Position numbers and translations under genes: made by a program. 35,574 bases of DNA from Hyphomonadaceae bacterium (lineage in GTDB: Bacteria > Pseudomonadota > Alphaproteobacteria > Caulobacterales > Aquidulcibacteraceae). Below the pieces are notes generated by a model. The model worked only from the letters and a program-made list of their open reading frames with translations, was not told the origin of the DNA and made no database searches. Location: assembly GCA_016791365.1 (NCBI GenBank), contig JAEUMT010000049.1, forward strand, positions 1 to 35,574. Reading direction: 5' to 3'. This document shows positions 5,624-26,734 of the stretch, piece after piece. The first letter of the stretch is position 1, and each line of letters begins with the position of its first letter.

Positions 5624-6433
5624 ATGGCGTATGACCCGCTCGCGTTGGAGATTGAGATGAGCTGGGAAGAAACGTTCGCGGAAGACATGGACAATCGCGG
5701 CGGGCGCAATCGCACCGTCACCGTGGGATGGACCGTCCGCGCGCCACACGCACACATCATCTGGGGCGCGCCGCGCCCGTTCGAACACAAGCTTCCAAAG
5801 CCGACATCGGCAAAATCGGTTCAGGCATGCCCGGCGGCGGTTGATTTCGACCGTCGCCATTTCGTGATCCCGTGCCCGCTCGACGTCACGCTAAAATTCC
5901 AGAAGCAAGCCAACGGCCAGCTGGGTTTGGTCGATGCGCACGGCGAACAGTCCGCCGTGCGCCCGCAAGGCATGCGCGAACTGCTGACGCTGCAGCCGCC
6001 GAATGAATGGCGCCATCCCGAACGGCCATTGATCCAATTTCAGGCGCCCTACGTTTTTGTCGCCGACGATCCCTGCTACGTTGTGCAAACGCCGCCCTAT
6101 CTCGACTATTTCCCGCAACAACGCCCTGGCGTCCAAATCTGCGGCCGCTTTCCGATTCACATCTGGCCGCGGCCGTTCAGCTGGGCGTTCGAATGGTACG
6201 ACATCAGCCAGCCGTTGGTGCTAAAGCGCGGCGAGCCCTGGTTTTATGTCCACTTCGAAACCGAGACGCCGTCCGCGCGCGTGCGTCTCGTGGAAACAGA
6301 ACTGACGCCTGAACTCGAAGAGCACATCAAAACGATCGCCGATGTCACGAATTTTGTGAATCGCTCTTTCACAATGTTCGGCGAAGCGCAGCGCCGCCGC
6401 CCCGCCACGCTGGTGAAACCGAAGAAAGCCTAA
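5624..6433 (+). CDS. hypothetical protein, possibly a distant DUF6065 relative
   Basis: A 269-residue soluble protein rich in aromatic residues (WPRPFSWAFEWYDIS near residue 190), with no catalytic motif that I recognise. Its order of features (a PCPLD..LKF strand, PLIQFQ, a PP turn, a W/F-rich strand, then KRGEPWFYV) parallels the DUF6065-type protein at 27446-28201, which has PFPFTMNW then FKKGEPFCFVY. I infer a shared fold. It follows the helicase gene in the same direction after about 40 bases. The ATG at 5657 has GGAG six bases upstream and may be the true start; the one at 5624 lacks a clear site. Confidence 0.75.
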   Translation: MAYDPLALEIEMSWEETFAEDMDNRGGRNRTVTVGWTVRAPHAHIIWGAPRPFEHKLPKPTSAKSVQACPAAVDFDRRHFVIPCPLDVTLKFQKQANGQLGLVDAHGEQSAVRPQGMRELLTLQPPNEWRHPERPLIQFQAPYVFVADDPCYVVQTPPYLDYFPQQRPGVQICGRFPIHIWPRPFSWAFEWYDISQPLVLKRGEPWFYVHFETETPSARVRLVETELTPELEEHIKTIADVTNFVNRSFTMFGEAQRRRPATLVKPKKA

Positions 6434-6448
6434 GGCCGCGCGCGGCCT
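6433..6448. terminator. GC-rich palindrome between convergent genes
   Basis: AGGCCGCGCGCGGCCT is a perfect 16-bp palindrome that overlaps the stop of the forward gene (ends 6433) and of the reverse spoVR gene (begins 6447). Its position suits a two-way transcription stop, although no T-run follows on either side. Confidence 0.4.
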
Positions 6449-7988
6449 ACATAAACGGGCGGCGCGGGCTGGCCGCATGCTCGGCGCGGACATTGCCGGA
6501 ATCGTCGGCCTCCACCAGCTTCACGTCATAGCCCCAAAGATCGGCGACGTGCTGCAGCACCTTGTCGGTGTCGCTGTCCTCAAGCGTCATGCCGTCCAGC
6601 ACGCGGTAGGACAGGATGAGCTTGCGGTCTCCCGCGAGATCGACATCCACGATCTGAATGTCCGGATCGCTGTACGCCACGTCGTAGCGCTTCGACAGCG
6701 CGCGGCGGATCTTGCGATAGCCGCGCTCATCATGGATCGCGGCGACGTTCATATCCTCTTCTTCCTCGTCATCGTGAACATTGAAGAGTCCGAAGCTGCG
6801 GATGCATTCCGGCGAGAGATATTGTGAGACAAAGCTCTCATCGCGGAAGTTGGCCCAAATATTCCGCAGCGTGCCGTACGCATCGCCGTTGCCGGCAATA
6901 TCCGGCATCCATTCGCGATCCTCATCCGTCGGCTTGGTGCAAATGCGCTCGATATCGCAGCACATCGCAAAGCCGAGCGCGTAAGGATTGATGCCCGAGT
7001 AGCGGCGATCGTCGAAATCCGGCTGCATCACCACGCTGGTGTGCGAGTGCAGGAATTCCAAGAACGCGCCGTCGTCAATCTGCCCCTTCTCGTGCAAGCG
7101 GTTCATGACACGATGGTGCACGAACGTTGCGCAACCTTCGTTCATCACCTTGGTCTGGCGCTGCGGATAGAAATACTGGTTGATCATCCGCACCATGCGC
7201 AAAATTTCGCGCTGCCATGGGGCAAGGCGCGGCGCCGTCTTCTCCAGGAAATAGAGCAGGTTCTCTTCGGGCAATCCGAGCAACGCCTTGCGGCGCGCGT
7301 CATCGTCCGCGTTCGGCTTGCGCTTGCCTTGCGGCACGGTGCGCCAAAGATCGTTGAACAATTGCTCGCCGTGGAGGCGCCGCTCTTCTTCCCGGCGCTG
7401 CTCGGAACGGAGGTCGGCCATACGCTTGCGCGGAAAACGATGAATGCCGTGGCTCTGCAGTGCGTGCGCCGCATCAAGCACGCGCTCCACCTCTTCCTGG
7501 CCGTACCGGTCTTCGTATTTCGCGATCAAGCCACGAGCAAATTCGAGATAGTCGAGAATGCCGTCCGCATCGGTCCACTGCTTGAACACGTAATTGTTCT
7601 TGAAGAAGTGGCTATGCCCGTAGCCCGCGTGAGCGATCACCAGCGTCTGCATCATCGCGGAGTTTTCTTCCATGATGTAAACGAGGCACGGGTTCGAGTT
7701 GATGACGATCTCGTACGCGAGGCCCTGATAGCCTTTGCGATAGAGCGCCTCGTTGCGCGCAAACTCCTTACCGAACGACCAATGCCGATAGAAGAGCGGC
7801 ATGCCGGTCGAAGCATACGCATCCAGCATCTGCTCGGTCGTGATCACTTCGATCTGGTTCGGATACGGGTCCAAGCCCATTTCGTTGATCGCGATCTCGC
7901 CGCACGCATCATGTACGCGGCGGATAAGATCGAAATCCCAATCCGGACCTTTGAAGAGCAGCTTGTTGTCGGGTGCGAGCAGAGTCAT
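6447..7988 (-). CDS. SpoVR family protein (YcgB-like)
   Basis: A 513-residue member of the SpoVR/YcgB family, named after a Bacillus spore-cortex gene but widespread in non-sporulating bacteria. Typical stretches are present: the N-terminal DWDFDLIRRVHDACGEIA, VIVNSNPC-type IVINSNPCLVYIMEEN, HAGYGHSHFFKNN, and MNEGCATFVHH with INPYALGF in the middle. Its biochemical function is unknown. Its ATG shares one base with the stop of the upstream yeaH-like gene (TGATG), so the two are probably translationally coupled. It is the last gene of the prkA-yeaH-spoVR operon, which in E. coli (yeaGH and ycgB) responds to stationary phase and nitrogen stress. Confidence 0.95.
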   Translation of the reverse strand: MTLLAPDNKLLFKGPDWDFDLIRRVHDACGEIAINEMGLDPYPNQIEVITTEQMLDAYASTGMPLFYRHWSFGKEFARNEALYRKGYQGLAYEIVINSNPCLVYIMEENSAMMQTLVIAHAGYGHSHFFKNNYVFKQWTDADGILDYLEFARGLIAKYEDRYGQEEVERVLDAAHALQSHGIHRFPRKRMADLRSEQRREEERRLHGEQLFNDLWRTVPQGKRKPNADDDARRKALLGLPEENLLYFLEKTAPRLAPWQREILRMVRMINQYFYPQRQTKVMNEGCATFVHHRVMNRLHEKGQIDDGAFLEFLHSHTSVVMQPDFDDRRYSGINPYALGFAMCCDIERICTKPTDEDREWMPDIAGNGDAYGTLRNIWANFRDESFVSQYLSPECIRSFGLFNVHDDEEEEDMNVAAIHDERGYRKIRRALSKRYDVAYSDPDIQIVDVDLAGDRKLILSYRVLDGMTLEDSDTDKVLQHVADLWGYDVKLVEADDSGNVRAEHAASPRRPFM

Positions 7989-9292
7989 CAGGCGCCATCC
8001 GCCGCGACGCCGTCAGGACGGCGCGCAAACAATTCGCGGAACACAGGATAGATATCGCGGCGATGCTTGACCTTGCGCATCGCGAACGGCGCATCGACCG
8101 AAACCCGCCGGTACGCGCGCCACAGATTGGTGCTGGGCTCGCCGGCGCCGGGATGATCATCCTCATCGTCCATGCCGACTTCGACATAGGCATAATACTG
8201 GCAAATCGGCAGGATCACATCGCGCAGCTGCGCCAGCACCACGGCATTATCGCTCGACGTATTGTCGCCGTCGCTGGCTTGCGCGGCGTAGATATTCCAC
8301 TGATCGACCGGATAGCGCTCGCGCACGATCTTCTGCATCTCGAACAAAGCCGTTGACACCACCGTGCCGCCGGTCTCGCGCGAATAAAAGAATGTCTGCT
8401 CATCCACCTCGGACGCTTCGTGCGTGTGGCGGATGAACACAACATCCACGTGCTCGTAACGCCGGTTCAAGAAGAGATAGAGCAGCGAGTAAAACCGCTT
8501 CGCCAAGTCCTTCATGTGCTCGTTCATCGAGCCGGAGACGTCCATCAGGCAAAACATCACCGCTTTCGCGATCGGCTTGGGGTTCGATTCCAAACGGCGG
8601 AAACGCACGTCCACCGGATCGATATACGGAATCCGCTTCGAGCGCAGAATGATCTGCTCAAGCGCTTTGCGTTTCTCAACCAGCGCTTCGAACTGCCCGC
8701 CTTCCCGCTCCAGCTTCTCGATCTCCTCGCGCAGCGCGACGATCTCTTCCTTCTTCGGCCGCTTCAGCGCGATGCGGCGCGACATCGAGTGACGCAATGT
8801 GCGTGGCACCGAGATACGCGACGGCGGACCGGAAACCGAATAGCCGGCCTGACGCCACTGCACCGACTTCGCGCCGCTGACTTGGCGTTTAGCCAGATCG
8901 GGAAGCTCAAGATCTTCAAGATAGAGATCGAGATATTCCTCGTCCGACAGCGCGAAGCGAAACTCGTCCTCGCCCTCGCCGCTGTCGCTAGCCTTCGAGC
9001 CTTGCCCGCCGCCTTGCTGGGGGCGCGCGATGCTATCGCCTTCAATGTACTTCTTGTTGCCCGGCAACACATAGTCGCGGACGCCGCCTTGGCCTGAACG
9101 GCGCAAATGCGGCTCATGCACACCGCCGGCCGGGATCGAAACCTCGCCGCCCTTGCCCGCATCCTTGATCGAGCGCGACGAAGACGCTTCACGCACCGCC
9201 TTGCGCACTTGCGCACGCGCGCGACGCAAGAAGCGCTGACGGTTCGCAAAACTCTTCCCGCCCGGGTTCAGGCGGCGATCGATAATGTTCAT
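7988..9292 (-). CDS. YeaH/YhbH family protein (DUF444)
   Basis: A 434-residue protein of the YeaH/YhbH family. The N-terminus is basic (NIIDRRLNPGGKSFANRQRFLRR, typical of the family) and a Gly-rich acidic linker follows. From about residue 235 there is a von Willebrand factor A-like domain with the metal-site motif DVSGSM, then HTHEASEVDE and SGGT-like TGGTVVSTAL. These proteins are partners of the PrkA kinase; the mechanism is unknown. It starts 12 bases after the prkA stop and ends overlapping spoVR, so the three genes form one unit. Confidence 0.95.
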   Translation of the reverse strand: MNIIDRRLNPGGKSFANRQRFLRRARAQVRKAVREASSSRSIKDAGKGGEVSIPAGGVHEPHLRRSGQGGVRDYVLPGNKKYIEGDSIARPQQGGGQGSKASDSGEGEDEFRFALSDEEYLDLYLEDLELPDLAKRQVSGAKSVQWRQAGYSVSGPPSRISVPRTLRHSMSRRIALKRPKKEEIVALREEIEKLEREGGQFEALVEKRKALEQIILRSKRIPYIDPVDVRFRRLESNPKPIAKAVMFCLMDVSGSMNEHMKDLAKRFYSLLYLFLNRRYEHVDVVFIRHTHEASEVDEQTFFYSRETGGTVVSTALFEMQKIVRERYPVDQWNIYAAQASDGDNTSSDNAVVLAQLRDVILPICQYYAYVEVGMDDEDDHPGAGEPSTNLWRAYRRVSVDAPFAMRKVKHRRDIYPVFRELFARRPDGVAADGA

Positions 9293-9304
9293 ACGCGGCC
9301 CGCC

Positions 9305-11245
9305 TCAGCCCGCTTGCTTGACGCGCATGTACCACTCGACCAGCCGGCGGACTTGCCGCTCGGTGTAGCCGCGCTCGACCATGCGCAACACGAACTCCTC
9401 GTGCTTCTTCTCCGAGTCGCCGTCCTTCTTTGAACCGAAGGAGATGATCGGCAGCAGATCTTCGACCTGGCTGAACATCCGGCGCTCAATCACTTCGCGG
9501 ATTTTCTCGTACGAGGTCCAAGACGGGTTCTTGCCGCCATGGCCCGCGCGCGCGCGAAGCGTGAACTTCACGACCTCGTTGCGGAAGTCCTTCGGGTTGG
9601 CGATGCCGGCGGGCTTTTCAATCTTCGAAAGCTCCTGATTGAGCAATTCGCGATTGAGCAGCTGGCCGGTGTCCGGATCCTTGTAATCGATGTCCTCGAT
9701 CCAAGCGTCGGCGAAATCGACATAACGATCGAACAGGTTCTGACCGAAGTCGTGATATGACTCGAGGTACGCCTTCTGGATCTCGTTGCCGATGAACTCC
9801 GCGTAACGCGGCGCAAGATCGGCCTTGATGAACTCAAGCAACCGGCCTTCTTGCTCTTGCGGATATTGCTCGCGCCGCACTTGCTGCTCGAGCACGTACA
9901 TCAAGTGCACCGGGTCAGCGGCAACTTCCGTCGTGTCGTGATTGTAAGTCGCGGCCAGCACTTTGAACGCAAAGCGCGTCGAGATGCCTTCCATGCCTTC
10001 ATCGACACCGGCGGCGTCCTTGTACTCTTGCAGCGTGCGCGCTTTCGGATCGACCTCCTTCAAGCTCTCGCCGTTATAGACGCGCATCTTCGCGAACGCG
10101 TTGGAGTTTTCGTGCTCCTTCAAGCGCGAAAGCACCGAGAAGCGCGCCAGCATTTCAAGCGTACCCGGCGCGCACGGGGCTTCCGAAAGCTCGGAACCCC
10201 GGATCAGCTTTTCATAGATGCGCTGCTCTTCCTGCACGCGTAGCACGTACGGGACCTTGATCACGTAGATGCGGTCGATGAAGGCCTCGTTGTTCTTGTT
10301 GTTCTTGAACGTCTGCCACTCGGCTTCGTTCGAGTGCGCCATGATGATGCCGGTGTACGGGATCGCGCCGATATTCTCGGTGCCGACGTAATTGCCTTCC
10401 TGCGTCGCCGTCAGCAGCGGGTGCAGCATCTTGATCGGCGCTTTGAACATCTCGACGAATTCGAGCATGCCCTGGTTCGCACGGTTCAAGCCGCCGGAAT
10501 AGCTGTACGCGTCAGGATCGTTCTGCGCGTGCATTTCGAGCTTACGGATGTCGACCTTGCCAACGAGCGAGCTGACATCCTGGTTGTTGTCGTCGCCGGG
10601 CTCGGTCTTCGCGATCGCCACTTGCCGCAGCCGCGACGGATTCATCTTGGCGACGCGGAATTTGGTGATGTCGCCGCCGAATTCGTCGAGCCGCTTCACG
10701 CACCATGGGCTCATCAGGCCATTCAGCCGGCGCTGCGGGATGCCGTAATCGTCCTCAAGACGCTGGCCCCACACAGCCGGATCAAACAAGCCAAGCGGAT
10801 GCTCGAACACCGGCGAAAGCTCATCGCCCGCTTTCAGCACGTAGATCGGCTGATCTTCCATCAGCGCCTTCAAGCGCTCGGCCAGTGACGACTTGCCGCC
10901 GCCGACAGGGCCCAACAGATAGATGATCTGCTTGCGCTCTTCCAAACCCTGCGCGGCGTGACGGAAGAAGGCGACGATCCGTTCGATCGTCTCTTCCATG
11001 CCGTAGAATTCCGCGAACGCGGGATAAAACCGCATCGTGCGGTTCATGAAGACGCGCCCAAGCCGCGCGTCCTTCGACGTATCGACCATTTTGGGTTCGC
11101 CGATCGCGGCAAGCAGACGCTCGTGCGCGCTCGCGTAGGCCATCGGTTCGTCGCGGCAAAGGCTGAGAAAGTCCTGCAGCGACATTTCCGCTTCCCGACG
11201 CTGCTCGAACGAGCGAGCGTAACTGCGAAAAAGATCTTCAGACAT
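9305..11245 (-). CDS. prkA: PrkA family serine protein kinase / AAA+ protein
   Basis: A 646-residue PrkA (YeaG) protein. An AAA+ module with Walker A GPVGGGKSS (about residues 112-120) is followed by the PrkA C-terminal domain. HSNEAEWQTFKNNKNNEAFIDRI-type text and RAGHGGKNPSWTSYEKIREVIE are highly typical of the family. In other bacteria it is a stress- or sporulation-associated kinase, and recent work also points to Lon-like protease activity in Bacillus. The ATG at 11245 is preceded by GGAGG with a four-base gap; an upstream in-frame codon at 11269 lacks support. It is the first gene of the prkA-yeaH-spoVR operon. Confidence 0.95.
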   Translation of the reverse strand: MSEDLFRSYARSFEQRREAEMSLQDFLSLCRDEPMAYASAHERLLAAIGEPKMVDTSKDARLGRVFMNRTMRFYPAFAEFYGMEETIERIVAFFRHAAQGLEERKQIIYLLGPVGGGKSSLAERLKALMEDQPIYVLKAGDELSPVFEHPLGLFDPAVWGQRLEDDYGIPQRRLNGLMSPWCVKRLDEFGGDITKFRVAKMNPSRLRQVAIAKTEPGDDNNQDVSSLVGKVDIRKLEMHAQNDPDAYSYSGGLNRANQGMLEFVEMFKAPIKMLHPLLTATQEGNYVGTENIGAIPYTGIIMAHSNEAEWQTFKNNKNNEAFIDRIYVIKVPYVLRVQEEQRIYEKLIRGSELSEAPCAPGTLEMLARFSVLSRLKEHENSNAFAKMRVYNGESLKEVDPKARTLQEYKDAAGVDEGMEGISTRFAFKVLAATYNHDTTEVAADPVHLMYVLEQQVRREQYPQEQEGRLLEFIKADLAPRYAEFIGNEIQKAYLESYHDFGQNLFDRYVDFADAWIEDIDYKDPDTGQLLNRELLNQELSKIEKPAGIANPKDFRNEVVKFTLRARAGHGGKNPSWTSYEKIREVIERRMFSQVEDLLPIISFGSKKDGDSEKKHEEFVLRMVERGYTERQVRRLVEWYMRVKQAG

Positions 11246-11563
11246 CGTGCCTCCGTCGCGTCCCGGCAAAGCTTACATAAGTACTGCGGCTCCGAGACGC
11301 TTAACAAAAAGCCATGCAAATCTGGCGGCGATAAGGTGGAGTTTGTAACGCCGCGCACGATCCGCCCAAACAACGTGCAGAGGATGGCATGATTTGCGCC
11401 GATGCCGAGACGGAAACTGGCAAAAGTGAACAGCTGACCGAAAACTGAACGAATTGTGGCGCAACGCGAACGCACGGCTTTAACGAAAGCAAAACTCTCT
11501 ATTTTACGCGGCCTTAAGCACGATGCGGCATCCCTTGGGGCTGGGGACCGCAGAGGCTGACCA
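11246..11563. promoter_or_regulatory. divergent intergenic region prkA / coiled-coil gene
   Basis: This 318-base stretch shows no convincing gene and is less GC-rich than its surroundings. On the minus strand a possible promoter for prkA is TTGTTA (11302-11307 in reverse), an 18-base spacer and TACTTA (11278-11283 in reverse), giving a leader of about 25 bases. On the plus strand TTTAAC (11479-11484) and TATTTT (11500-11505) stand 15 bases apart upstream of the coiled-coil gene, a poor fit. I looked for the GGAAC...CGTT general-stress promoter of alphaproteobacteria and did not see one. Confidence 0.35.
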
Positions 11564-16351: not shown

Positions 16352-17362
16352 ATGCGGACCACCGACCCCGTTCCGGTCATTGGCGGGATTGGCATCTATC
16401 TGCCGCGCAACGTCGTGACCTCCCGTGAGCTCGATTCCCAGTTGGGGCTGCGCGATGGTTGGCTTGAGAAAAACTGCGGCGTCAGACAGCGCCACGTCGT
16501 CAGCGGCGATGAAACTCAAGAATTCATGGGCGCCGCCGCCGCCCGCGCCGCCCTGGCGGACGCCAAGCTCGACGCGAACGATCTCGACGTTCTTCTCTTC
16601 GCCGCCGCCGTCGGACGCCAACCGATTCCCGCCACGGCGCCGCTCATCAAACAAATGCTCGACACGAGCGATCACGCTTTCCCGGCATACGATGTGAACG
16701 CCACCTGTCTCAGCGCCCTCGTCGCCGTCGACACCGCGTCGATGCTCATCCAGACCGGACGCGCCAGGAACGTTCTCGTCGTCGCTTCCGAAATCGCCTC
16801 GCGCGCGCTGCCGTGGCGCACCGATCCCCGGACCGCCGGTCTTTTCGGCGACGGCGCCGCGGCGCTGGTGATTCGCGCCGCCACGGGACCCGCCCCTTAC
16901 GCCGTCGGTCCGATGCATTTGGAAACCTATTCAGACGGCTATTCCTATTGCGAGCTGCGCGCCGGCGGCACGCGCTACGACTTCAAGACAGAGCGCGAGG
17001 AGTTCACCGCCAACGCCGAGTTCAGCATGCAAGGCGCATCGCTTTATCGCCTGAGTTCGGAGGCCGCGCCCGGCTTCATCGCGCGCCTTCTCGACAAAGC
17101 CGGCTGGCGCCACGAAGACGTCGATCTCGTTGTCCCGCACCAGGCCAGCGCTCACGCGCTGGCGCACATCATCAAGCGGTGCGGGTTTGAATCAAGCCGC
17201 GTCGTCGATCTGGTCGCTGAGATCGGCAATCAGGTCGCCGCCTCCTGGCCGATCGTTCTCTACAAGGCGCGTGAAGCGGGCCGCTTACAATCCGGCATGA
17301 AGGTATTGCTGCTCGGAACGTCCGCCGGCGTCTCGCTGGGTGGCGCGACCATGGTGGTGTAG
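16352..17362 (+). CDS. 3-oxoacyl-ACP synthase III (FabH-like) family protein
   Basis: A 336-residue thiolase-fold condensing enzyme that would join an acyl-CoA or acyl-ACP to a second acyl unit. The catalytic triad is in place: Cys119 (DVNATCLSA), His263 (VPHQAS) and Asn293 (EIGNQVAAS). The His-Asn spacing of 30 equals that of FabH. GDGAAALVI and the C-terminal GTSAGVSLGGA are typical. The divergent active-site text and the company it keeps argue for a secondary pathway rather than primary fatty-acid synthesis. AGAGG-like AAGAGG stands six to seven bases before the ATG. It is the first gene of a six-gene block with almost no gaps; the next gene begins on the base after its stop. Confidence 0.92.
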   Translation: MRTTDPVPVIGGIGIYLPRNVVTSRELDSQLGLRDGWLEKNCGVRQRHVVSGDETQEFMGAAAARAALADAKLDANDLDVLLFAAAVGRQPIPATAPLIKQMLDTSDHAFPAYDVNATCLSALVAVDTASMLIQTGRARNVLVVASEIASRALPWRTDPRTAGLFGDGAAALVIRAATGPAPYAVGPMHLETYSDGYSYCELRAGGTRYDFKTEREEFTANAEFSMQGASLYRLSSEAAPGFIARLLDKAGWRHEDVDLVVPHQASAHALAHIIKRCGFESSRVVDLVAEIGNQVAASWPIVLYKAREAGRLQSGMKVLLLGTSAGVSLGGATMVV

Positions 17363-18331
17363 GTGCGCATCATCATCACCGGCGCGACCGGATTTCTCGG
17401 CGGCGTATTGGCGCGCCGCCTCCTCGCCCAAGGCGATGACGTCATCGCGCTCGGCCGCGATCGGGTAAAACTGGCTTCACTCGAAGCGCTAGACGCACGG
17501 ACACATGCGTTTGACCTCTCAGCAACGGCGAAACCACCAGGCCTCGCCGCCGACGCAATCGTCCATTGCGCCGCACTTTCCTCGCCATGGGGCGCGCGCG
17601 CCGCTTTCCACGCCGCCAATGTCATAGGCACACAGAACGCCATAAAGCTCGCTCGCGACGCAGGCGCCCGACGCTTCGTCCACATCTCCACGCCCAGCAT
17701 CTACTTCCGGTTTCGCGATCAAGTCGGCGTGCGCGAAGACGCGGAACTCCCAGCGCCCGTGAACGCTTACGCCCAAACCAAACGTGAAGCCGAACGTCTC
17801 GTGATCGGCGCGAGCGGCCTCGACCCAATCATCCTGCGACCCCGTGGCCTCTACGGCCCAGGCGACACAACGTTGCTGCCGCGTCTGATCAACGCCGCCC
17901 GCACGCGCGCGCTGCCACTCATGAACGAGGGTCGCGCCGCCACCGATCTCACATTCATCACCGATGTCGCCGACGCGGCGCATGCGGCGCTCATCGCGCC
18001 CGGCGCGCTCGAACAACGCATCTTCAACATTTCCGGCGGCGAAGCGCTCAACGTAACGCAAGTCGCCGACCGCGCCGCCGCGCGCGCAAATGTCAGCGTC
18101 CGCTGGCGGCGCATGCCCCCGGCGTTCGTTCTGGCATTTGCGCGCCTCAGCGAAGCACTCTGCGCGCGCCTGCCGCATCGCCCCGAGCCGCCGATCACCG
18201 CTTACGGCGCCGCGCTCTTCGCTTTCACGCAAACGCTCAACATCGAGGCGGCCGCCAAGCACCTCGGCTGGACGCCGAAGGTCAAGTTTGACGAAGGCCT
18301 CGCTCTCACATTCGCGGGCGCAGGCGCTTGA
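17363..18331 (+). CDS. NAD(P)-dependent epimerase/dehydratase (extended SDR)
   Basis: A 322-residue extended short-chain dehydrogenase. The Rossmann motif GATGFLG is at residues 7-13, HCAA at 68-71 and the catalytic YxxxK at Tyr136/Lys140 (YAQTK), with RPRGLYGPGD downstream. It resembles 3-beta-hydroxysteroid dehydrogenase/OleD-type enzymes that reduce a beta-keto group more than sugar epimerases; this is inference. The GTG start at 17363 directly follows the TAG of the ketoacyl synthase gene, so translation is probably coupled. A likely job is to reduce the condensation product of the previous enzyme. Confidence 0.9.
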   Translation: MRIIITGATGFLGGVLARRLLAQGDDVIALGRDRVKLASLEALDARTHAFDLSATAKPPGLAADAIVHCAALSSPWGARAAFHAANVIGTQNAIKLARDAGARRFVHISTPSIYFRFRDQVGVREDAELPAPVNAYAQTKREAERLVIGASGLDPIILRPRGLYGPGDTTLLPRLINAARTRALPLMNEGRAATDLTFITDVADAAHAALIAPGALEQRIFNISGGEALNVTQVADRAAARANVSVRWRRMPPAFVLAFARLSEALCARLPHRPEPPITAYGAALFAFTQTLNIEAAAKHLGWTPKVKFDEGLALTFAGAGA

Positions 18332-19104
18332 GCGCACGTCCGGTCTTCCTGAACAGCGCTTTCGTGCGAGCGCCTGAACGCTTCGTCCTCCATGGCGGCC
18401 GCTGGACCCGAATCGACATCCCGGTGCGCTACGGCGTGTTTGATCATCCACGCCTCGGCCGCTGCCTCATCGATACCGGCTACACGCAACGCGTCACCAC
18501 AGGCCGCCGCTCGCTGCCGCTCACGCTCTATGCCAGCATCCTCCGCCCGCGCCTTCAGCAGGACGCGCTACGCGGCGACATCACGGTCAAGGCCATCCTC
18601 CTCACACACCTGCACGCCGACCATGTCTCCGCGCTGCGCGATTTTCCGGATGCCGCGCTCTACGCCAGCGGCGTCGGCGTCGATCATTTCACCAACTGCA
18701 GCGAATACGCCCGCATCCGCCACGGCGTCTTCCGCGAATTGCTGCCATCCGATCTCCAGCAGCGCGCCAAACGCTTCGAAGCCTGCGCCATCGTCGAAGC
18801 GCCACTCGGCCTCGGCCCGGCGCGCGATGTATTCGGCGACGGCGAAGTCCTGGCCGTGCCGCTACCCGGGCACATGCGCGGCCACACCGGCTTTGTCTGG
18901 CCCAAACTTGACCGACCACTCCTCTATGCCGCTGACGCCCAATGGCTCGCCCGCGCCGTCATGGAAGATCGCGCCCCCGGAGCGCCCGCGCGTTGGATCG
19001 TGGACGACGTCGCCGCCGACGTTACAACGCGCCAACGCATCGCCGCCTTCGCGCGCGCCGGTGGCGAGGTGATCTACTGTCACGATCCGGCGGATGGCGC
19101 ATGA
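18328..19104 (+). CDS. metallo-beta-lactamase-fold hydrolase
   Basis: A 258-residue hydrolase. The zinc motif HLHADH is at residues 94-99, with further ligands likely at His182/His186 (GHMRGHTG) and Asp203 (AADAQW). The N-terminal half has the fold's LIDTGY strand. It resembles lactonase and thioesterase members of the family (AHL lactonase-like), suggesting cleavage of a lactone or thioester intermediate. The TTG start overlaps the preceding stop (TTGA), and the end overlaps the next ATG (ATGA). It is the third gene of the block. Confidence 0.9.
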   Translation: MSARPVFLNSAFVRAPERFVLHGGRWTRIDIPVRYGVFDHPRLGRCLIDTGYTQRVTTGRRSLPLTLYASILRPRLQQDALRGDITVKAILLTHLHADHVSALRDFPDAALYASGVGVDHFTNCSEYARIRHGVFRELLPSDLQQRAKRFEACAIVEAPLGLGPARDVFGDGEVLAVPLPGHMRGHTGFVWPKLDRPLLYAADAQWLARAVMEDRAPGAPARWIVDDVAADVTTRQRIAAFARAGGEVIYCHDPADGA

Positions 19105-20252
19105 GCACCGTCCTCATCACCGGCGTTCGCGCACCGATCGCACTCGATCTCGCCCGCAGCTTCAGCGCCGCCGGGCACGACGCGCACGTTGCCGACTCGA
19201 TCTATCCCTGGACAGCGCGGCTTTCCCGCCAAACCCGCAACCGCTTCCACAAATTCGCACCGCCGCGCTTCGCTTTCACAAAATTCGCGGAAGACCTCGC
19301 GCGCCTCGTCAATCAACTCAAGCCAGATTGGATCATTCCAACCTGTGAGGAGGTCTTCTATGTCGCCGAAGCCGGAGCGCGACAGGGCTTCGCCGATCGC
19401 GTTTTGGCGCCGCCGCCATCCATGCTGCGCACCCTGCATTCGAAAGTCGACTTCGCCCACTTCGCCCAAGCCAATGGCGTCACCGCGCCGGAAACGACAC
19501 GCGTTACCTCGCCCGAAGAACTCAGCGCATTTCGCGACCGGTCGCGCACCGTCGTGCTGAAACCCGAATTCTCGCGCTTCGCCTCACACGCAAAAATTCG
19601 CCCCACCGCCGAAGAGCTTGACACCATCAAACCCACCGCCGCCGAACCATGGGCCGTGCAAGATTTCGTCGAAGGCGATGAGATCTGCGTCTGGTCATCA
19701 AGCATGAACGGTGAGGTCACCGCTTTTGCCGCTTACAAGCCGCTCTGGCGCCTCGGCCAATCCTCAAGCTTCTATTTCGAACGCGACGACGATCCGGCCA
19801 TCCTTGAAACCACCCGCGCCATCGCCCGCGCCGCCAACGCTACCGGTCAGCTTTCCTTTGACGTCATCCGCACCCGCAACGGCGCAATCCTACCCATCGA
19901 GTGCAACCCACGCGGCATCAGCGGCATCCATCTTTTCGACAGCGATCCGCGCCTTGCGCGTGCGCTGCTCAACGAGACGCCGCTACAAACGCCGCGCGCC
20001 GAGGCCCGTCACATCGGTCCGGCCATGTGGCTGTTCGGTGCGCCCGGCGCGCTCGCCAGCGGCAGATTCGAAGCCTTTCAACACGACATCAAACGCAGCC
20101 GCGACGTCCTCAACGTTCCGAACGAACCCATGCTCGGCGCCGGCGCGCTTCTCGACGCCGGCCGTTTCACCCTCATCGGCCTCAGCCGTGGCCGCTCCGC
20201 TTCCGGCCAAAGCACCGACGACATCGAGTGGAACGGCGAGCCGATCGCGTGA
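19101..20252 (+). CDS. ATP-grasp domain protein
   Basis: A 383-residue ATP-grasp protein; such enzymes join a carboxylate to an amine or thiol through an acyl-phosphate. The N-terminal Rossmann-like part begins VLITGVRAPIALDLARSF, as in the carbamoyl-phosphate-synthase-like branch. WIIPTCEEVFY is followed by the ATP-binding VVLKPEFSRFAS, QDFVEGDEICVWS, and the metal-binding ILPIECNPRGISG. The C-terminal 80 residues are not recognisable. ATG overlaps the MBL stop (ATGA), and its own stop overlaps the next GTG. It may conjugate the acyl product to an amino compound; the substrate is not readable. Confidence 0.88.
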   Translation: MSTVLITGVRAPIALDLARSFSAAGHDAHVADSIYPWTARLSRQTRNRFHKFAPPRFAFTKFAEDLARLVNQLKPDWIIPTCEEVFYVAEAGARQGFADRVLAPPPSMLRTLHSKVDFAHFAQANGVTAPETTRVTSPEELSAFRDRSRTVVLKPEFSRFASHAKIRPTAEELDTIKPTAAEPWAVQDFVEGDEICVWSSSMNGEVTAFAAYKPLWRLGQSSSFYFERDDDPAILETTRAIARAANATGQLSFDVIRTRNGAILPIECNPRGISGIHLFDSDPRLARALLNETPLQTPRAEARHIGPAMWLFGAPGALASGRFEAFQHDIKRSRDVLNVPNEPMLGAGALLDAGRFTLIGLSRGRSASGQSTDDIEWNGEPIA

Positions 20253-21388
20253 GCGCCCCCGATCTCTTCTATCCCGAAACAGGCCCCCGTGACGGTTGGC
20301 CCGCAGGCGCCGAGGCTGATCGCGCCTATCTCGAAATTTTCGCGCACAGAGACTCAACCGCGCTCATCTCGAACCTGCGCACCACGATCATGGGCCTGCG
20401 CTCCGGCGCACGCGTCTATCCGGTCACCATTAACGAAGCAGAATACGGCGACGCCTACGTCTGCCTCCCACACACCGCCTATGCGCTCTACGCCAAGGAT
20501 GAACTCCGCATCGTCGACGCCGGGCCATGGACACCGGCGCTCGGCCTTCTCGCAAGCAGCGCCGGCGCCATGCTCCGCGCGGCGCGCGTCAACCGCATCG
20601 TTCACGTCAACAATTACATGCTCTCAACCAACCTCCACGGCGGCTGGCGCGGCGACGATATCGACGCCATAAGAATGCTGCTCACGGAGCGCTTCCCGGA
20701 CCACCTCATCGCCGTGCGTTCGTTGAACCAATGGTCTGACGCTGATCTCTGGCGACGTTTTCACGACGCGGGATGGCGGATGCTCCCGAGTCGCCAAATC
20801 TACGTCACTGACGATCTCACAGCCGATTGGGCGACACGCCGTGACACCAAACGCGATCGCGCCATCATGCGCACCGTCGCCAGCCGAATCGACACGCTGG
20901 AAGCACTGCGCCCCGGCGACGCCGAACGTATCTCCGAACTCTACGCTCTGCTTTATCTCGGTCGTTACTCCGCTCTGAATCCCGCCTTCACGCCCGCTTA
21001 CATCGAGGCCACGAACCGCACCGGCGCATTCCACTATCGTGGCCTGCGCGAAAGCGACGGCCAGCTCTCCGCCGTCGTCGGCTGCTTTATCCGCGGCGGC
21101 GTCCTCACCACGCCCATCGTCGGCTACGACACGGCCCGTCCTGCCAGCGATGGCCTCTATCGCATCGCCAGCTACATGCTCGCCCAAATCGCGCGGGACC
21201 GCGGCTTGCGCCTCAATGGCTCCGCCGGCGCCGCGAGCTTCAAAGTCAATCGCGGCGCACGCCCGGTCACTGAATACTCCGCCTACTTCGTCGATCATCT
21301 CTCTCTTGCCCGCCGGGCCGTCATCGGAGGCGTGGAGCGCTTGTTGAACAAGGTCGCCGTCCCATTGATGCAGGAGCGCGGCCTATGA
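20249..21388 (+). CDS. acyltransferase-like (GNAT/FemAB-type) protein of unknown function
   Basis: A 379-residue protein. The first half (about 1-190) has no recognisable motif; it contains ISNLRTTIMGLRSGARVYPVT and HVNNYMLSTNLHGGW. The second half reads like a GNAT/FemAB acyltransferase: RAIMRTVASRIDTLEALRPGD, LYLGRYSALNPAFTPAYIE, VVGCFIRGGVLTTPIVGYD, then LNGSAGAASFKVNRGA near the end. The GTG start overlaps the previous stop (GTGA), and its end overlaps the Rieske start (ATGA). The position suggests it transfers an acyl or aminoacyl group in the same pathway. The functional call is tentative; the coding call is firm. Confidence 0.75.
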   Translation: MSAPDLFYPETGPRDGWPAGAEADRAYLEIFAHRDSTALISNLRTTIMGLRSGARVYPVTINEAEYGDAYVCLPHTAYALYAKDELRIVDAGPWTPALGLLASSAGAMLRAARVNRIVHVNNYMLSTNLHGGWRGDDIDAIRMLLTERFPDHLIAVRSLNQWSDADLWRRFHDAGWRMLPSRQIYVTDDLTADWATRRDTKRDRAIMRTVASRIDTLEALRPGDAERISELYALLYLGRYSALNPAFTPAYIEATNRTGAFHYRGLRESDGQLSAVVGCFIRGGVLTTPIVGYDTARPASDGLYRIASYMLAQIARDRGLRLNGSAGAASFKVNRGARPVTEYSAYFVDHLSLARRAVIGGVERLLNKVAVPLMQERGL

Positions 21389-22383
21389 GCGCCTACCCGC
21401 ACGCCGTCGCCCAAGGCTGGCATCCGATCGCAGCGGTGAAGCAACTCGGCGCCAATCCGCTCGCGCGCTCGTTAATGGGCACGCCCGTCGTCGTGTTCAA
21501 AGGCGCCGGCGGCCCTGCCGTGCTCGTCGATCGCTGCCCGCATCGCAACATGGCGCTCTCACGCGGCGCCGTACATAGCGGCGAGATCGAGTGCCCATAT
21601 CATGGTTGGCGCTTCGCCAGTGACGGCCGCTGCACGCTCACCCCAGGCGCCAGCGAACCCGCACGCTTTGGCGCGCAAACACTTCCCGTTGCCGTGCGCG
21701 CCGGCCTCGTCTGGACCACGCTCGCGAAATCGCCGAACACCGAACCGTTCCTACCGCCGCCTCTTACCACCGAAGGCCTCGACACCTTCATGTGGCCCGT
21801 GAAACCTTCGCGCGCGCGCCTCATCGACGCTGTCGAAAACCTGCTCGACCCCGCCCATCCGCATTTCCTGCACGCCGGCATCGTACGCGCGAAGAACCTC
21901 CGCAAACCCGTCGACGTCACCGTGCGCGTCCACCCAACCTTCGCGGAAGCCATCTATATCGAGAACGCCAAAGCCTCGGCGCTCATGCCGCGCATGCTCG
22001 AGGGCCTCCGGGTCGCCAGCATCGGCCGCTTCTTTCCACCTTCAACCGGCCAAGTCGCGTTTGAAGGCAAAGACGGCTTGAAACTCGCCATCACCGTCTT
22101 CTTCACGCCGGAAAGCGAAAACGTCGTGCGCCCGTTCGCCCACTTCGCCACACCGAAAGGCGTGGCGCCCGCATTCGTGAAAGAAGCGCTGCTGCGCGCC
22201 TTTCATATCCCCGTGCTCGCGCAAGACCGCGAAGCCTTGCGCAAACAAACCGACGACATCGAAAATTTCGGCGCGCCCAAATACGCGCTCGGCCCGCTCG
22301 ACTTTCTCTTCCCCGCCATCAACGCGCTCGCTGCCGGCGAAACCCCAGAGCCAAGCGAACGCACCGCCCGCGTCGAACTTTAA
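21385..22383 (+). CDS. Rieske 2Fe-2S ring-hydroxylating/demethylating-type oxygenase
   Basis: A 332-residue oxygenase alpha subunit. The Rieske cluster ligands are Cys51-x-His53 (CPHRN) and Cys70-x2-His73 (CPYHGW). The mononuclear iron site follows in ENLLDPAHPHFLH (Asp155, His158, His163). It resembles vanillate O-demethylase/PaO-like enzymes, which hydroxylate, desaturate or demethylate. No reductase or ferredoxin gene is adjacent, so electrons must come from elsewhere. It is the last forward gene of the block; its TAA shares the bases TTAA with the stop of the convergent adenylate-forming gene. Confidence 0.93.
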   Translation: MSAYPHAVAQGWHPIAAVKQLGANPLARSLMGTPVVVFKGAGGPAVLVDRCPHRNMALSRGAVHSGEIECPYHGWRFASDGRCTLTPGASEPARFGAQTLPVAVRAGLVWTTLAKSPNTEPFLPPPLTTEGLDTFMWPVKPSRARLIDAVENLLDPAHPHFLHAGIVRAKNLRKPVDVTVRVHPTFAEAIYIENAKASALMPRMLEGLRVASIGRFFPPSTGQVAFEGKDGLKLAITVFFTPESENVVRPFAHFATPKGVAPAFVKEALLRAFHIPVLAQDREALRKQTDDIENFGAPKYALGPLDFLFPAINALAAGETPEPSERTARVEL

Positions 22384-23648
22384 GACGGCCGCCACTCACG
22401 CCGCACACGCCGCAACTTGCGGTCAAACGGCGCCTCAATCCCGGACCGCAGCTCAACCCGCGGCTCTACCGCGCCAACCTTGAGCAAGGCCGCATGCAGC
22501 GCCGCAACCGCGCGCGCACCGGCCTCCGCCGGCAGATCATGCGCCAGGGTCAGCACAACACGGTCCACGCCAATCTGCGTCACGCGGAAATCCAGGATAC
22601 GCCGATCCGCATCGACCACGGCGTTGCGCATCACGTCCGGCGTCACCGACACCAACGCATCACCGAACCCGCCCAGCTGAAACACATCGTCATGGCGCCC
22701 TTCGATGCTCTCAACGCATTGCAGCGGCGAGCCACATGCGCATCCCCTGCTCGACAACCGCAGCAGATCATTCATCCGATAGCGCGCCATGATTTGCGTC
22801 GTGCGGGTAAAATCCGTCACCAGCGGCGACACCAAGTCGCCGCCTCCCGGTTCAAACTCAAACGCCACCACATCTTCCGCCAAATGCAGCGTCCCTTCCC
22901 GGCACCCGACGCCGAACAAGCCCTCCGTCGCCATGTAGATTTCGCGCACCCGCGCCCCGAAACGCGCCTCAACACTGGCGCGGTCCAGCGGATCAAGCAC
23001 CTCGGCGCCCGAAAACACATTCAACGGCCGAATGCGCGACGTCTCAGCCAAGATCCGCAACACCTTCGGCGGCGCGACAATCGTATCCGGCGCGTACGCC
23101 TCGATTTCCGCGCGCCACGCATCCACGCCCAGCGCCAAATCAAAGAACCGCAGCGACAGCCGCCCCGTCTCCGCCGCCGACGCATAGAGTTTGTTGTACC
23201 CCGGCAGCGCCAGCGCCACCTTGTGCCGCGCGAACAAGACATCCGGCAACGTCTTCGCCAGCATCACGCCGAGCCACGTAAACCGCTCAGCTTCGCTGAT
23301 GACGTACACACCGCGATTGCCGCTCGTACCCGTGCTCTGCCCAATGAAAAGATCGCCGACCTTCTCATCCCCACGATCCAACGCTGCGCGCACATCCGGG
23401 TATGTCGCGCCCTTCACATTGAATTTATCGAAGTTCGCCAGCAGAACCTGCTTGTCGACAATTGGCAAATCCGCAAGCCGCCGCGCGCCAAGCCCCGCAT
23501 AGTACGGCACGCGCGCCACAGCATGGCGCAAGAACCGATCCAGCCGCGCCGCCTGCCATCGCGCCACATCCGCACGCGTACGCAGCCGCTTCGCGAGCTG
23601 TCTCGTCCGCCAAAACGCGGCGATGGCGTAAACGACGGCGAAATTCAT
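22380..23648 (-). CDS. adenylate-forming enzyme, coenzyme F390 synthetase-related
   Basis: A 422-residue member of the ANL-type adenylating family close to PaaK and F390-synthetase-related proteins. The phosphate-binding loop is GQSTGTSGNRGVY (about 103-115). YMATEGLFG is the A5-like motif, and YRMNDLLRL the A7/A8-like region. A short Cys cluster (CACGSPLQC) matches the PaaK-type metal site. It should activate a carboxylic acid as an acyl-adenylate. It is convergent with the Rieske gene (four-base overlap at the stops) and divergent from the exporter with a 37-base gap. Despite the opposite strand it most likely belongs to the same pathway. Confidence 0.88.
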   Translation of the reverse strand: MNFAVVYAIAAFWRTRQLAKRLRTRADVARWQAARLDRFLRHAVARVPYYAGLGARRLADLPIVDKQVLLANFDKFNVKGATYPDVRAALDRGDEKVGDLFIGQSTGTSGNRGVYVISEAERFTWLGVMLAKTLPDVLFARHKVALALPGYNKLYASAAETGRLSLRFFDLALGVDAWRAEIEAYAPDTIVAPPKVLRILAETSRIRPLNVFSGAEVLDPLDRASVEARFGARVREIYMATEGLFGVGCREGTLHLAEDVVAFEFEPGGGDLVSPLVTDFTRTTQIMARYRMNDLLRLSSRGCACGSPLQCVESIEGRHDDVFQLGGFGDALVSVTPDVMRNAVVDADRRILDFRVTQIGVDRVVLTLAHDLPAEAGARAVAALHAALLKVGAVEPRVELRSGIEAPFDRKLRRVRREWRPS

Positions 23649-23685
23649 TCTCGTGCCGCTTTAGCACGCCGTATAAGGTGACGAT

Positions 23686-24900
23686 ATGGCGCGCCATTCG
23701 CTCGGCTTCATCTACGTGACCGTGGCGCTCGATGCGCTCGCCATGGGCATCGTCATTCCCGTACTGCCGCGCCTCATCGGCACGCTAACGAACTACGATG
23801 CGCCAAACATCGCGCTCGCCGTTGGCGTGCTCGCCACGCTTTTCGCGCTCACGCAATTTTTCGCGGCGCCCATCATCGGCGCGCTCTCCGATCGGTTCGG
23901 GCGCCGTCCCATCGTGCTCGCCGCCAATGCCAGCCTCGCCATCGACTTCGCCATCATGGCGTTTGCGCCAAATCTGATCTGGCTCGCGGCAGGGCGCTTC
24001 TTGTCAGGCATCGCCGCCGGCAGCGGCCCCGCCGCCTTCGCCTACGTCGCCGACGTCACGCCGCAATCGAAACGTGGCGCGGCCCTCGGCAAGCTCTTCG
24101 GCGCGCAAGCGCTCGGTGCAACCTTAGGCCCCGCACTCGGCGGCCTTCTCAGCAGCGGCGATATCCGCGCGCCCTTCTGGGCCGCCGCAATTCTTTGCCT
24201 GCTCAACACGCTCTACGGCCTCTTCGTGCTGCCGGAATCCTTGCCGCCCGAAAAGCGCGCGCGTTTCGACTGGGCGCACGCAAACCCCATCGGCGCCATT
24301 GTCTGGCTCGCGCGCGCATATCCGCAGGCGCTGGGCATGATCGTCGTCGCGTTTCTGCTGAGCTTCGCCTCGCAAGGCGCCAACAGCCTCACCGTGCTCT
24401 ACACGGAATTTCGCTACGGCTGGACGCCGCAAACCATCGGCATCGTGCTCACGATCTTCGGCATCGCCAGCCTTGCCGTACAAGCCGGCCTCGTGACGCC
24501 GATCACGCGCCGCCTCGGCGAACGCGCAACCTTCATCAGCGGACTCTCACTCACCACCGCCGGACTCTTCCTTTTCGGCGCGGCGCCCACCGGCGCGCTC
24601 TTCTGCGCCGCGCTGCCGCTGCTCGCGCTCGGCGCCATCTGCGGGCCCGTGATGGGCGGGTATTTCAGCGCCATGGTCGCCGACCACGAACAAGGCCGCC
24701 TCCAAGGCGCCTGGAGCGGCGTCAACGCCGCCATGGGCCTTCTGGCGCCCGGCGCCTTCACCGCGCTCTACGCAACCTCGATCTCCGGCGCCCACGCACC
24801 GGCCCCCGGCGCAGCCTTCTACGCCGCCGCCGCCATCCTCACGCTCGCACTCCTCCTCGCCACAAAAACATGGCGCAGCCCGCGCAGGAGCATCGACTAA
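23686..24900 (+). CDS. MFS transporter, TetA-like
   Basis: A 404-residue major facilitator with about 12 membrane helices. Motif A is GALSDRFGRRP after helix 2, GIAAGSGPAAFAYVADVTP marks the helix 4-5 region, and GPALGGLL the antiporter motif C-like region. The whole resembles tetracycline/multidrug proton antiporters. Its position, divergent from the adenylate-forming gene and next to the biosynthetic block, suggests export of the product; this is inference. A housekeeping or resistance role is equally possible. Confidence 0.92.
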   Translation: MARHSLGFIYVTVALDALAMGIVIPVLPRLIGTLTNYDAPNIALAVGVLATLFALTQFFAAPIIGALSDRFGRRPIVLAANASLAIDFAIMAFAPNLIWLAAGRFLSGIAAGSGPAAFAYVADVTPQSKRGAALGKLFGAQALGATLGPALGGLLSSGDIRAPFWAAAILCLLNTLYGLFVLPESLPPEKRARFDWAHANPIGAIVWLARAYPQALGMIVVAFLLSFASQGANSLTVLYTEFRYGWTPQTIGIVLTIFGIASLAVQAGLVTPITRRLGERATFISGLSLTTAGLFLFGAAPTGALFCAALPLLALGAICGPVMGGYFSAMVADHEQGRLQGAWSGVNAAMGLLAPGAFTALYATSISGAHAPAPGAAFYAAAAILTLALLLATKTWRSPRRSID

Positions 24901-24911
24901 GCTTGAAAAAC

Positions 24912-24986
24912 TGGAGCGGGCGATGAGATTCGAACTCACGACCCCAACCTTGGCAAGGTTGTGCTCTACCCCTGAGCTACGCCCGC
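24912..24986 (-). tRNA. tRNA-Gly (anticodon GCC)
   Basis: On the minus strand a cloverleaf folds: acceptor GCGGGCG / CGCCCGC, D arm GCTC / GAGC, anticodon stem CAACC / GGTTG around loop TTGCCAA (anticodon GCC), T loop TTCGAAT, discriminator T and an encoded CCA. It sits 11 bases after the convergent MFS stop. No integrase or duplicated tRNA end is nearby. Confidence 0.97.
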
Positions 24987-25538: not shown

Positions 25539-26654
25539 TCACCAAATCTCGCCAAATGCGCGGATAAAATTGCCGCCAAGCACCTTCTCCACCACGCGCG
25601 GGGCGACCCCGCGATCGAGCAGCGCGTCGGCAATCACCAAGGCGCGGTCCGGCCGGTTCAGGCCCTCGGTGAACGGCAAGCGGCCGTCCTCCTCGGGGGC
25701 CGCGACGCCGGCTGCAATGCGGCGCTGCGTCTCCGCGTCCCAACTGGCCTGCTCCTCGGCCGACATTTCCATGGTGCTGAAACTGGTGTCGCTGCCGATA
25801 CCGACATGATCCTCACCGCACACGTCCAGCGCGTGCATCATGTGCGCGAGATAGTCGTCGACATTCGGTTGGCGGGGGCTGGGCGCGGTGAAGAAGAGAT
25901 CGAAGATTCCAAACACGCCGCCCTTCTCGGCAACCGCGCGCATCACGTCATCAGTTTTGTTGCGCGGATTGTTGTGCACCGCCGTGCAGCCGGCGTGCGT
26001 GATCAACACCGGCTTCGTCGACGCTTCGATCGCCGCACTCGTGGTTGCGGGATTGGCGTGACTTAAATCCAGTGCGACGCCTTTCTCATTCATACGCGCC
26101 ACAGCTTGGCGGCCGAGATCGGTCAGCGTCGAATCTGCTGGCGACATCACGCCAGCGCCAAACGGCGAGGGCGTATTGTAGCTCAGCTGCATCACGCGCA
26201 CGCCAAGGTTACGGAAGAGATCGATGCGGTCGATCTTGTCGTCCAAACACGCCGCGCTCTCGAACGAGAAGATGATCCCGACCTGCCGCTCGCGCTTCGC
26301 GGCGGCGATATCGCCAACACTACGGATCTGACGGAAATAGTCGGGATGCGCTTCGATCAAGCGCTGGTAAAAGGCGATCTCGGCAATTGTATCTTCGAAC
26401 GGCCCGTTGAATCCGCCCATGCTGGTCTTGATCGCCGAGACGCCGGCGTTGCGCGCGAGATCCAATGTCGCCTGCGGCAGGGGCAGCTGGGCTGAGCTGA
26501 TCGGCGGCCCAAGATTGGCGTCCACAACGATCGCGCGCCGATGCGCCGAGCGCGCCCGCGAACTTATCGCGCCATCATAAGCCAACGCCGCGCTCCCAAA
26601 ACCGCCCGCGGCCAGCAACGCCCCAGCGCCCAGCGCAAATTCACGACGATCCAT
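25539..26654 (-). CDS. membrane dipeptidase (peptidase M19, renal dipeptidase family)
   Basis: A 371-residue metal-dependent dipeptidase. The N-terminus MDRREFALGAGALLAAGGF carries a twin-arginine (RRE-F) export signal with an A-L-A cleavage site, so it acts in the periplasm. Family motifs follow: VVDANLG (usually V-D-x-H), FSFESAACL, LSHANPAT, LITHAGCTAVHNNPRNKTDD, and HVGIGSDTSF. The usual His-x-Asp at the first metal site appears as Asp-Ala-Asn, a possible change in metal binding. The start at 26654 gives the best spacing to GGGGAGA; 26660 is the alternative. A repeat-rich 74-base leader separates it from the lipoprotein gene. Confidence 0.9.
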   Translation of the reverse strand: MDRREFALGAGALLAAGGFGSAALAYDGAISSRARSAHRRAIVVDANLGPPISSAQLPLPQATLDLARNAGVSAIKTSMGGFNGPFEDTIAEIAFYQRLIEAHPDYFRQIRSVGDIAAAKRERQVGIIFSFESAACLDDKIDRIDLFRNLGVRVMQLSYNTPSPFGAGVMSPADSTLTDLGRQAVARMNEKGVALDLSHANPATTSAAIEASTKPVLITHAGCTAVHNNPRNKTDDVMRAVAEKGGVFGIFDLFFTAPSPRQPNVDDYLAHMMHALDVCGEDHVGIGSDTSFSTMEMSAEEQASWDAETQRRIAAGVAAPEEDGRLPFTEGLNRPDRALVIADALLDRGVAPRVVEKVLGGNFIRAFGEIW

Positions 26655-26674
26655 TCGCATTCTCCCCAATGTGT

Positions 26675-26714
26675 CTTGAACGGGGATGCCGCACCGTACT
26701 TGAACGGATGCGGC
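26675..26714 (-). promoter_or_regulatory. direct and inverted repeats in the dipeptidase leader
   Basis: CTTGAACGG occurs at 26675-26683 and 26699-26707, a spacing of 24 bases. GCCGCA (26688-26693) and TGCGGC (26709-26714) form an inverted repeat. These lie within 60 bases of the dipeptidase start and may be an operator or a hairpin leader. Confidence 0.3.
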
Positions 26715-26734
26715 CTCCTTCACGATTCCAAAAT

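Follow-up and report, generated by a model that had tools for sequence, protein, structure and literature searches.

A portable, modular gene block in a Hyphomonadaceae bacterium that may build a small acyl-amino-acid-like metabolite

Closest described systems

The Ole (oleABCD) clusters are among the closest described counterparts of a block of seven enzyme genes, adjoined by an exporter gene, that occupies positions 16352 to 24900 of a stretch of DNA from a Hyphomonadaceae bacterium. This stretch, here called the window, is positions 1 to 35,574 of contig JAEUMT010000049.1 (assembly GCA_016791365.1), analysed at its full length of 35,574 nucleotides. The block shares with the Ole systems a thiolase-superfamily condensing enzyme, a short-chain dehydrogenase/reductase (SDR) related to OleD and an adenylate-forming enzyme. 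It differs from them in that this last enzyme is a TIGR02304 ligase, in that it encodes a metallo-beta-lactamase (MBL)-fold enzyme and no OleB-type hydrolase, and in its extra ATP-grasp, FemX-like and Rieske enzymes. Clusters of OleA, OleC and OleD that lack OleB produce beta-lactones (PMC7064751).

An operon of Escherichia coli ABU 83972 has four of the genes of the block side by side, namely those for a beta-ketoacyl-acyl carrier protein (ACP) synthase III-type (KAS III) condensing enzyme, the SDR, the MBL hydrolase and the TIGR02304 ligase. It differs in having PAP2, sterol-desaturase-type and acyl-CoA desaturase genes and no ATP-grasp, FemX-like or Rieske gene. By sequence nearness, the closest solved relatives of the block KAS III are 4v2p (described as a "ketosynthase"), which we take to be MxnB, and CorB (4yuc), of the myxopyronin and corallopyronin systems. 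MxnB and CorB are condensing enzymes that join two chains within a polyketide synthase/nonribosomal peptide synthetase context, and that context is absent at the block. The aminoacyl-tRNA-dependent transferases FemXAB, MprF and Sbb17 share 8-16% identity in aligned pairs with a 379-residue protein of the block, and its ATP-grasp enzyme forms a subfamily of its own (PRK06849-like), different from PurD, PurK, PylC and the L-amino-acid ligases. An F390 synthetase is placed in a fatty-acid cluster of Desulfotalea, a different setting, by PMC2649909. No product or characterised cluster for the seven-gene set was found among the open-licence papers listed, judged by titles and the openings of abstracts, in agreement with the first-pass annotation, which could match the genes to no primary pathway or named natural-product cluster.

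Gene layout and joint conservation

We favour the reading that the block, portable and modular, directs the biosynthesis of a small acyl-amino-acid-like metabolite, and we give this a probability of about one half. The genes are intact, tightly packed and co-conserved across bacterial phyla together with their catalytic residues, and they are patchy in the source genus. All eight open reading frames were confirmed in the window. On the forward strand, genes for the KAS III (16352..17362, 336 residues), the NAD(P)-dependent SDR (17363..18331, 322 residues, GTG start), the MBL-fold metallo-hydrolase (18328..19104, 258 residues, TTG start), the ATP-grasp ligase (19101..20252, 383 residues), the 379-residue protein (20249..21388, GTG start) and the terminal component of a Rieske non-heme iron oxygenase (21385..22383, 332 residues) run without gaps. 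The first two abut with 0 bp between them and each of the other four junctions is a 4-bp overlap, just as the first-pass annotation had described for this six-gene run. The ligase gene (22380..23648, 422 residues) is convergent on the reverse strand and overlaps the Rieske gene tail to tail by 4 bp; 37 bp separate it from the forward-strand exporter gene (23686..24900). Across 80 loci, 358 of 371 same-strand junctions fall within -60 to +30 bp. A chance arrangement is excluded by conservation, since junctions of this kind recur in relatives and the catalytic residues are almost always kept. The G+C content is ordinary, promoter-like sites are no more frequent than expected by chance (1 versus a mean of 1.3 in shuffles), and terminator-like sites are barely more frequent (12 found versus a mean of 8.9, standard deviation 2.8, in shuffles).

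These 80 loci are the best of at least 574 confirmed ATP-grasp relatives from a profile scan with an eight-sequence alignment. Thirty of them belong to Mesorhizobium or its near kin, and the counts are not natural frequencies. Genes less than 2.5 kb apart were taken as chained, and a gene as absent when tblastn gave no match at E <= 1e-8. All seven enzyme genes are chained in 50 of the 80 loci, including one from a cyanobacterium (L095), and the KAS III, SDR, MBL and ATP-grasp genes occur together in 73, including an Opitutaceae metagenome-assembled genome (L072). This joint conservation in distant genomes upholds the earlier proposal of a single biosynthetic cluster, and among these best 80 loci the genes are not found mostly apart, the outcome that had been named as evidence to the contrary. 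Within the 73 loci, the gene for the 379-residue protein alone is missing from 10, the ligase gene alone from 6, the Rieske gene alone from 2, and both the 379-residue and Rieske genes from 5. Of the other seven loci, four are close to the end of a contig, which is not the case for L031, L041 and L089; in L041 the SDR, MBL and KAS III genes occur about 3.3 kb further along.

Gene order and strand vary among the loci, with 19 patterns listed, some of which differ merely by split matches or truncation. Among the carriers are species of Sphingomonas, Mesorhizobium, Brevundimonas, Erythrobacter, Methylibium, Stenotrophomonas, Xanthomonas and Pseudomonas; alpha-, beta- and gammaproteobacteria are represented, as is a cyanobacterium. 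The Opitutaceae carrier has no ligase gene. Cylindrospermum, a cyanobacterium, has all seven genes in a different order with one additional gene inside. With 29 of 30 Mesorhizobium-type loci dropped beforehand and host phylogeny left uncontrolled, inter-gene distances correlate in all 21 gene pairs (rho 0.34-0.80), and none of 200 permutations gave values as high.

The ATP-grasp family is present in 8 of 398 genomes of the phylum (E <= 1e-30). Six of these, the source genome (G000) included, carry the block, three of the six without the 379-residue gene, and the remaining two (G070 and G034) have the ATP-grasp gene only. The block is also found on plasmids, where 15 records have an ATP-grasp match and six were inspected at the match site. 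Rhizobium and Roseateles plasmid records hold all seven genes, a Paraburkholderia record has six annotated genes plus a Rieske match by tblastn, a Paenibacillus record lacks the Rieske gene alone, and a Pontibacillus record has the core and the ATP-grasp gene. Several observations argue against strict linkage. A Pseudomonas amygdali plasmid encodes a ligase and an ATP-grasp relative with no KAS III, SDR or MBL gene in the 19 kb read, these five genes are spread over about 14 kb on a plasmid of Pseudomonas sp. Leaf58, and five Xanthomonadaceae loci have the block without the ligase. A relative of the 379-residue protein (41% identity) also stands alone in genome G398 (L150 9787-10941), about 5 kb from a contig end, and no block gene was found around it.

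A core with exchangeable tailoring genes

The block looks like a core (KAS III, SDR, MBL hydrolase and ligase) combined with a pair (ATP-grasp and 379-residue protein) and a Rieske oxygenase. The ligase is a member of the core, the Rieske and 379-residue genes are optional, and the core occurs also without the ATP-grasp gene. TIGR02304 is found in 11 of the 398 phylum genomes (E <= 1e-25), and KAS III, SDR and MBL genes adjoin it in 10; the exception (G273) has two TIGR02304 places of 94 bits, and the one that was read has none of the three beside it. Four of the ten genomes, all from family f50, have the core without an ATP-grasp gene. In three of these four, PAP2, sterol-desaturase-type and acyl-CoA desaturase genes lie downstream, and no match to any of them was found in the fourth (G347). 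The operon on the E. coli ABU 83972 chromosome, which consists of the four core genes and these same three, is situated between narI and tRNA-Tyr genes (L117 2001-8882) and recurs in an E. coli plasmid record (L109 5191-12072). At least 80% of it is found in one place in 671 of 5,426 complete E. coli genomes.

Other finishing sets surround the core elsewhere. In one Ketogulonicigenium and two Paracoccus plasmid records (L110, L113, L115), all from Rhodobacterales, it is joined by genes for a sulfotransferase and a TetR regulator. Four Brevundimonas loci (L081, L083, L084, L088) have a five-gene version made of the core and the ATP-grasp gene, a further Brevundimonas locus (L074) has the Rieske gene as well, and a record from Pseudomonas sp. 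FeN3W has the core alone. The ATP-grasp/379-residue pair is likewise found without adjoining core genes on a Deinococcus plasmid and on two Armatimonadota metagenome-assembled contigs, one of which ends just past the pair. Tailoring sets swapped around one core are what would be expected of a chain-building core with variable finishing. A reordered core (SDR, MBL, ligase, KAS III) was also seen at 5823-10200 of a Fusobacterium vincentii record (L116) that is 2.1 Mb long, is labelled a plasmid and carries no gene annotation over the part read.

Core enzymes

Pfam and NCBIfam scans agree with the KAS III, SDR, MBL, ATP-grasp, Rieske and major facilitator superfamily (MFS) assignments made in the first-pass annotation. 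The KAS III matches PF08541 and PF08545, and its best model is NF005541 (PRK07204), against which it scores 311.7 bits, below the cut-off of 402; the KAS III enzymes of Paenibacillus (L107) and Pontibacillus (L103) exceed it, with 424.9 and 444.9 bits. In an alignment of the window and 79 of 86 loci, the triad Cys119-His263-Asn293 is kept in 79 of 80 rows (with one gap), 80 of 80 and 80 of 80, respectively. Two further FabH genes of the source genome exceed the family cut-off, so the block KAS III is an extra enzyme and a housekeeping FabH identity was rejected. For the SDR, the best NCBIfam model is OleD, a 2-alkyl-3-oxoalkanoate reductase (NF042422; 183.6 bits, cut-off 580), and Tyr136 and Lys140 are kept in all 80 aligned rows. 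A second OleD-like SDR is encoded elsewhere in the source genome (G000:C26:47457-48410; 221 bits, below the same cut-off of 580).

The HxHxDH motif of the MBL hydrolase is kept in 80 of 81 aligned rows, the other being a gap. The last histidine of the MBL enzyme is kept in just 41 of 81, perhaps because the other variant is misaligned there. The ligase is a PaaK/F390-type adenylate-forming enzyme that scores 272.3 bits against TIGR02304 ("F390 synthetase-related protein"), over the curated cut-off of 251.9, which substantiates the convergent acyl-activating enzyme called earlier. Pfam gives nothing for it at E <= 0.01, and Glu242, Asp294 and Lys411 are kept in 74 of 74 aligned rows.

These assignments bear on an Ole-like explanation, which we consider unlikely. 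Here the roles of OleA and OleD would fall to the KAS III and the SDR, the TIGR02304 ligase would form the beta-lactone as an analogue of OleC, and the MBL enzyme would open or limit the lactone, giving a beta-lactone or a hydrolysed beta-hydroxy acid that is then tailored. The SDR scores 184 bits with OleD versus 95 for the highest-scoring family of another type, and OleD-type models are also best for the core SDRs of one Paenibacillus and one E. coli. The nearest models and solved chains of the MBL enzyme are lactonases, though weakly (45 bits; E 1.4e-7), and the chain-joining relatives of the KAS III point the same way. However, the SDR falls far under the OleD cut-off, the best-scoring model of the KAS III is a beta-ketoacyl-ACP synthase III, the ligase does not match an OleC-type model, and none of the eight proteins is an alpha/beta hydrolase. 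A plain Ole cluster was rejected on these grounds, having neither an SDR above the OleD cut-off, nor an OleC-type AMP-binding ligase, nor an OleB alpha/beta hydrolase.

Tailoring enzymes

The ATP-grasp protein is probably a carboxylate-amine ligase. It scores 295 bits against NF005315 (PRK06849), whose cut-off of 406 is also missed by the enzymes of Paenibacillus L107 (364.1 bits) and Pontibacillus L103 (339.4 bits). The ATP-grasp fold is present together with conserved nucleotide- and metal-site residues, and it is amine-ligase-like; its profile had no match among solved structures at E <= 0.001.

The 379-residue protein had been labelled acyltransferase-like. The gene stands, but the label is corrected to a predicted FemX-like tandem-GNAT fold. 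At E <= 0.01 neither Pfam nor NCBIfam yields a match for the protein itself, and in its relatives Pfam recognises only the GNAT domain PF13480, in 20 of 40 members. Its predicted structure shows the tandem-GNAT Fem arrangement, and the FemX/MprF aminoacyl-tRNA-transferase fold is confidently predicted. The protein may be an aminoacyl or acyl transferase. The Rieske protein matches PF00355 and PF19112 (VanA_C), and its nearest solved structures are SxtDIOX, SxtT and dicamba monooxygenase. Its Cys2His2 site is kept in 73 of 74 rows (with one gap), and in the D-x2-H-x4-H iron site D155, H158 and H163 are kept in 72, 72 and 73 of 74.

Exporter and distribution in the source genus

The MFS exporter resembles Tet(A/B/C) but stays under the family cut-off (260.3 bits with the Tet(A)-type tetracycline efflux model, cut-off 475), and its identification as a tetracycline pump was rejected. 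It is present at all three loci of the source genus (the window, L005 and L006), and among the 80 loci relatives at E <= 1e-8 occur only in L023 and L024, which are the same contigs as L005 and L006. The exporter foreseen in the cluster is thus found beside the block, but it accompanies the block only in this genus and was rejected as a member of the conserved set.

The 379-residue protein occurs in 4 of the 61 nearest-relative genomes: in 3 of 30 genomes of the genus, the window's own counted, and as a distant relative (26%) at a contig end in G044. G000 and G004 share one order for all eight genes, KAS III through pump, and the G011 contig breaks off within the pump gene. To the left of the block is an acyl-CoA thioesterase gene (by Pfam) with matches in 29 of 30 genus genomes, and the right neighbour (25539-26723) is found in 7 of 30 (E <= 1e-80). 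The variable site in which the block lies is bounded on the right by a tRNA-Gly(gcc) gene (24912..24986, reverse strand). The window has 9.1 kb between the thioesterase and tRNA-Gly genes, occupied by the block and a gene for a 132-residue protein. In G020 the thioesterase gene is about 490 bp from tRNA-Gly and the site is free of the block, and in G027 about 20 kb with no match to the block lie between tRNA-Gly and the 132-residue gene. In G004 the block is on contig C158, where similarity to the window across the 19 kb read is confined to the block and pump, and the genes that flank the block in the window to the left and right are found on separate contigs (C133 and C83). Because these three arrangements differ, the tRNA-Gly site is variable and the block occupies more than one location in the genus. 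The block is rare (3 of 30 genomes) and patchy in the genus. Elsewhere in the window, the SpoVR, DUF444 and PrkA genes form a single reverse-strand run (6447-11269).

Membrane-lipid and catabolic explanations

It is also possible, if doubtful, that the block serves a membrane lipid, in which case the core would supply a modified acyl chain, and a polar head group, aminoacyl here and sulfated in Rhodobacterales, would come from the tailoring genes. This would suit the PAP2 phosphatase, sterol-desaturase-type and acyl-CoA desaturase genes beside the core in E. coli and three of the four f50 genomes, the sulfotransferase in the three Rhodobacterales records, and the closeness of the FemX-like fold to MprF, which aminoacylates lipids. 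The patchy distribution in the genus and the efflux pump that adjoins the block there fit it poorly. A catabolic or detoxification operon, in which the oxygenase, SDR, hydrolase and ligase would break down an outside compound, is highly improbable: Rieske oxygenases, SDRs, MBL hydrolases and PaaK-like ligases are frequent in degradation and a TetR-type regulator (identified by eye) is encoded no more than 6 kb from the block in 11 of 86 loci, but the KAS III, ATP-grasp ligase and FemX-like transferase are bond builders, the core is found without the oxygenase, and outside Mesorhizobium no other gene family within 6 kb (families being partly annotated) recurs in more than six loci.

Proposed chemistry and implications

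If the block is instead a biosynthetic cluster for an acyl-amino-acid-like metabolite, a chemistry drawn throughout from protein families can be proposed. The KAS III would elongate or join fatty-acyl thioesters to give a beta-keto chain, which the OleD-like SDR would reduce to a beta-hydroxy (possibly 2-alkyl) acyl group. The MBL enzyme could then cut the thioester (or a lactone), and the TIGR02304 ligase would turn the freed carboxylate into an acyl adenylate. An amide with an amino acid might be formed by the ATP-grasp enzyme through an acyl-phosphate route, and the FemX-fold enzyme may add an aminoacyl group from aminoacyl-tRNA or an acyl group. The Rieske oxygenase would hydroxylate or desaturate, and in the source genus the MFS pump would export the product. 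We infer that this product would be an aminoacylated, oxidised beta-hydroxy-acyl metabolite.

A bolder version of this proposal, to which we give rather long odds, is that the block belongs to a new class of modular lipid-amino-acid clusters that spans phyla. In this class the four-gene core would make a beta-hydroxy acid or beta-lactone without OleB or OleC, and modules particular to each host would convert it; here the module would be a FemX-like transferase dependent on aminoacyl-tRNA that works together with an ATP-grasp ligase. If this is true, amino acids for the metabolite would be taken straight from charged tRNA, and related products would be made in hundreds of E. coli strains.

A concrete role that can be tested, aminoacyl or acyl transfer, is now available for the 379-residue protein, and TIGR02304 is given a context as a marker of the core in 10 of 11 sampled genomes. 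With the five-gene version in Brevundimonas, a small construct would suffice to test the chemistry. A seven-gene set with tight overlaps in distant bacteria and variable tailoring points to a widespread metabolite, for which the literature searched gave no name.

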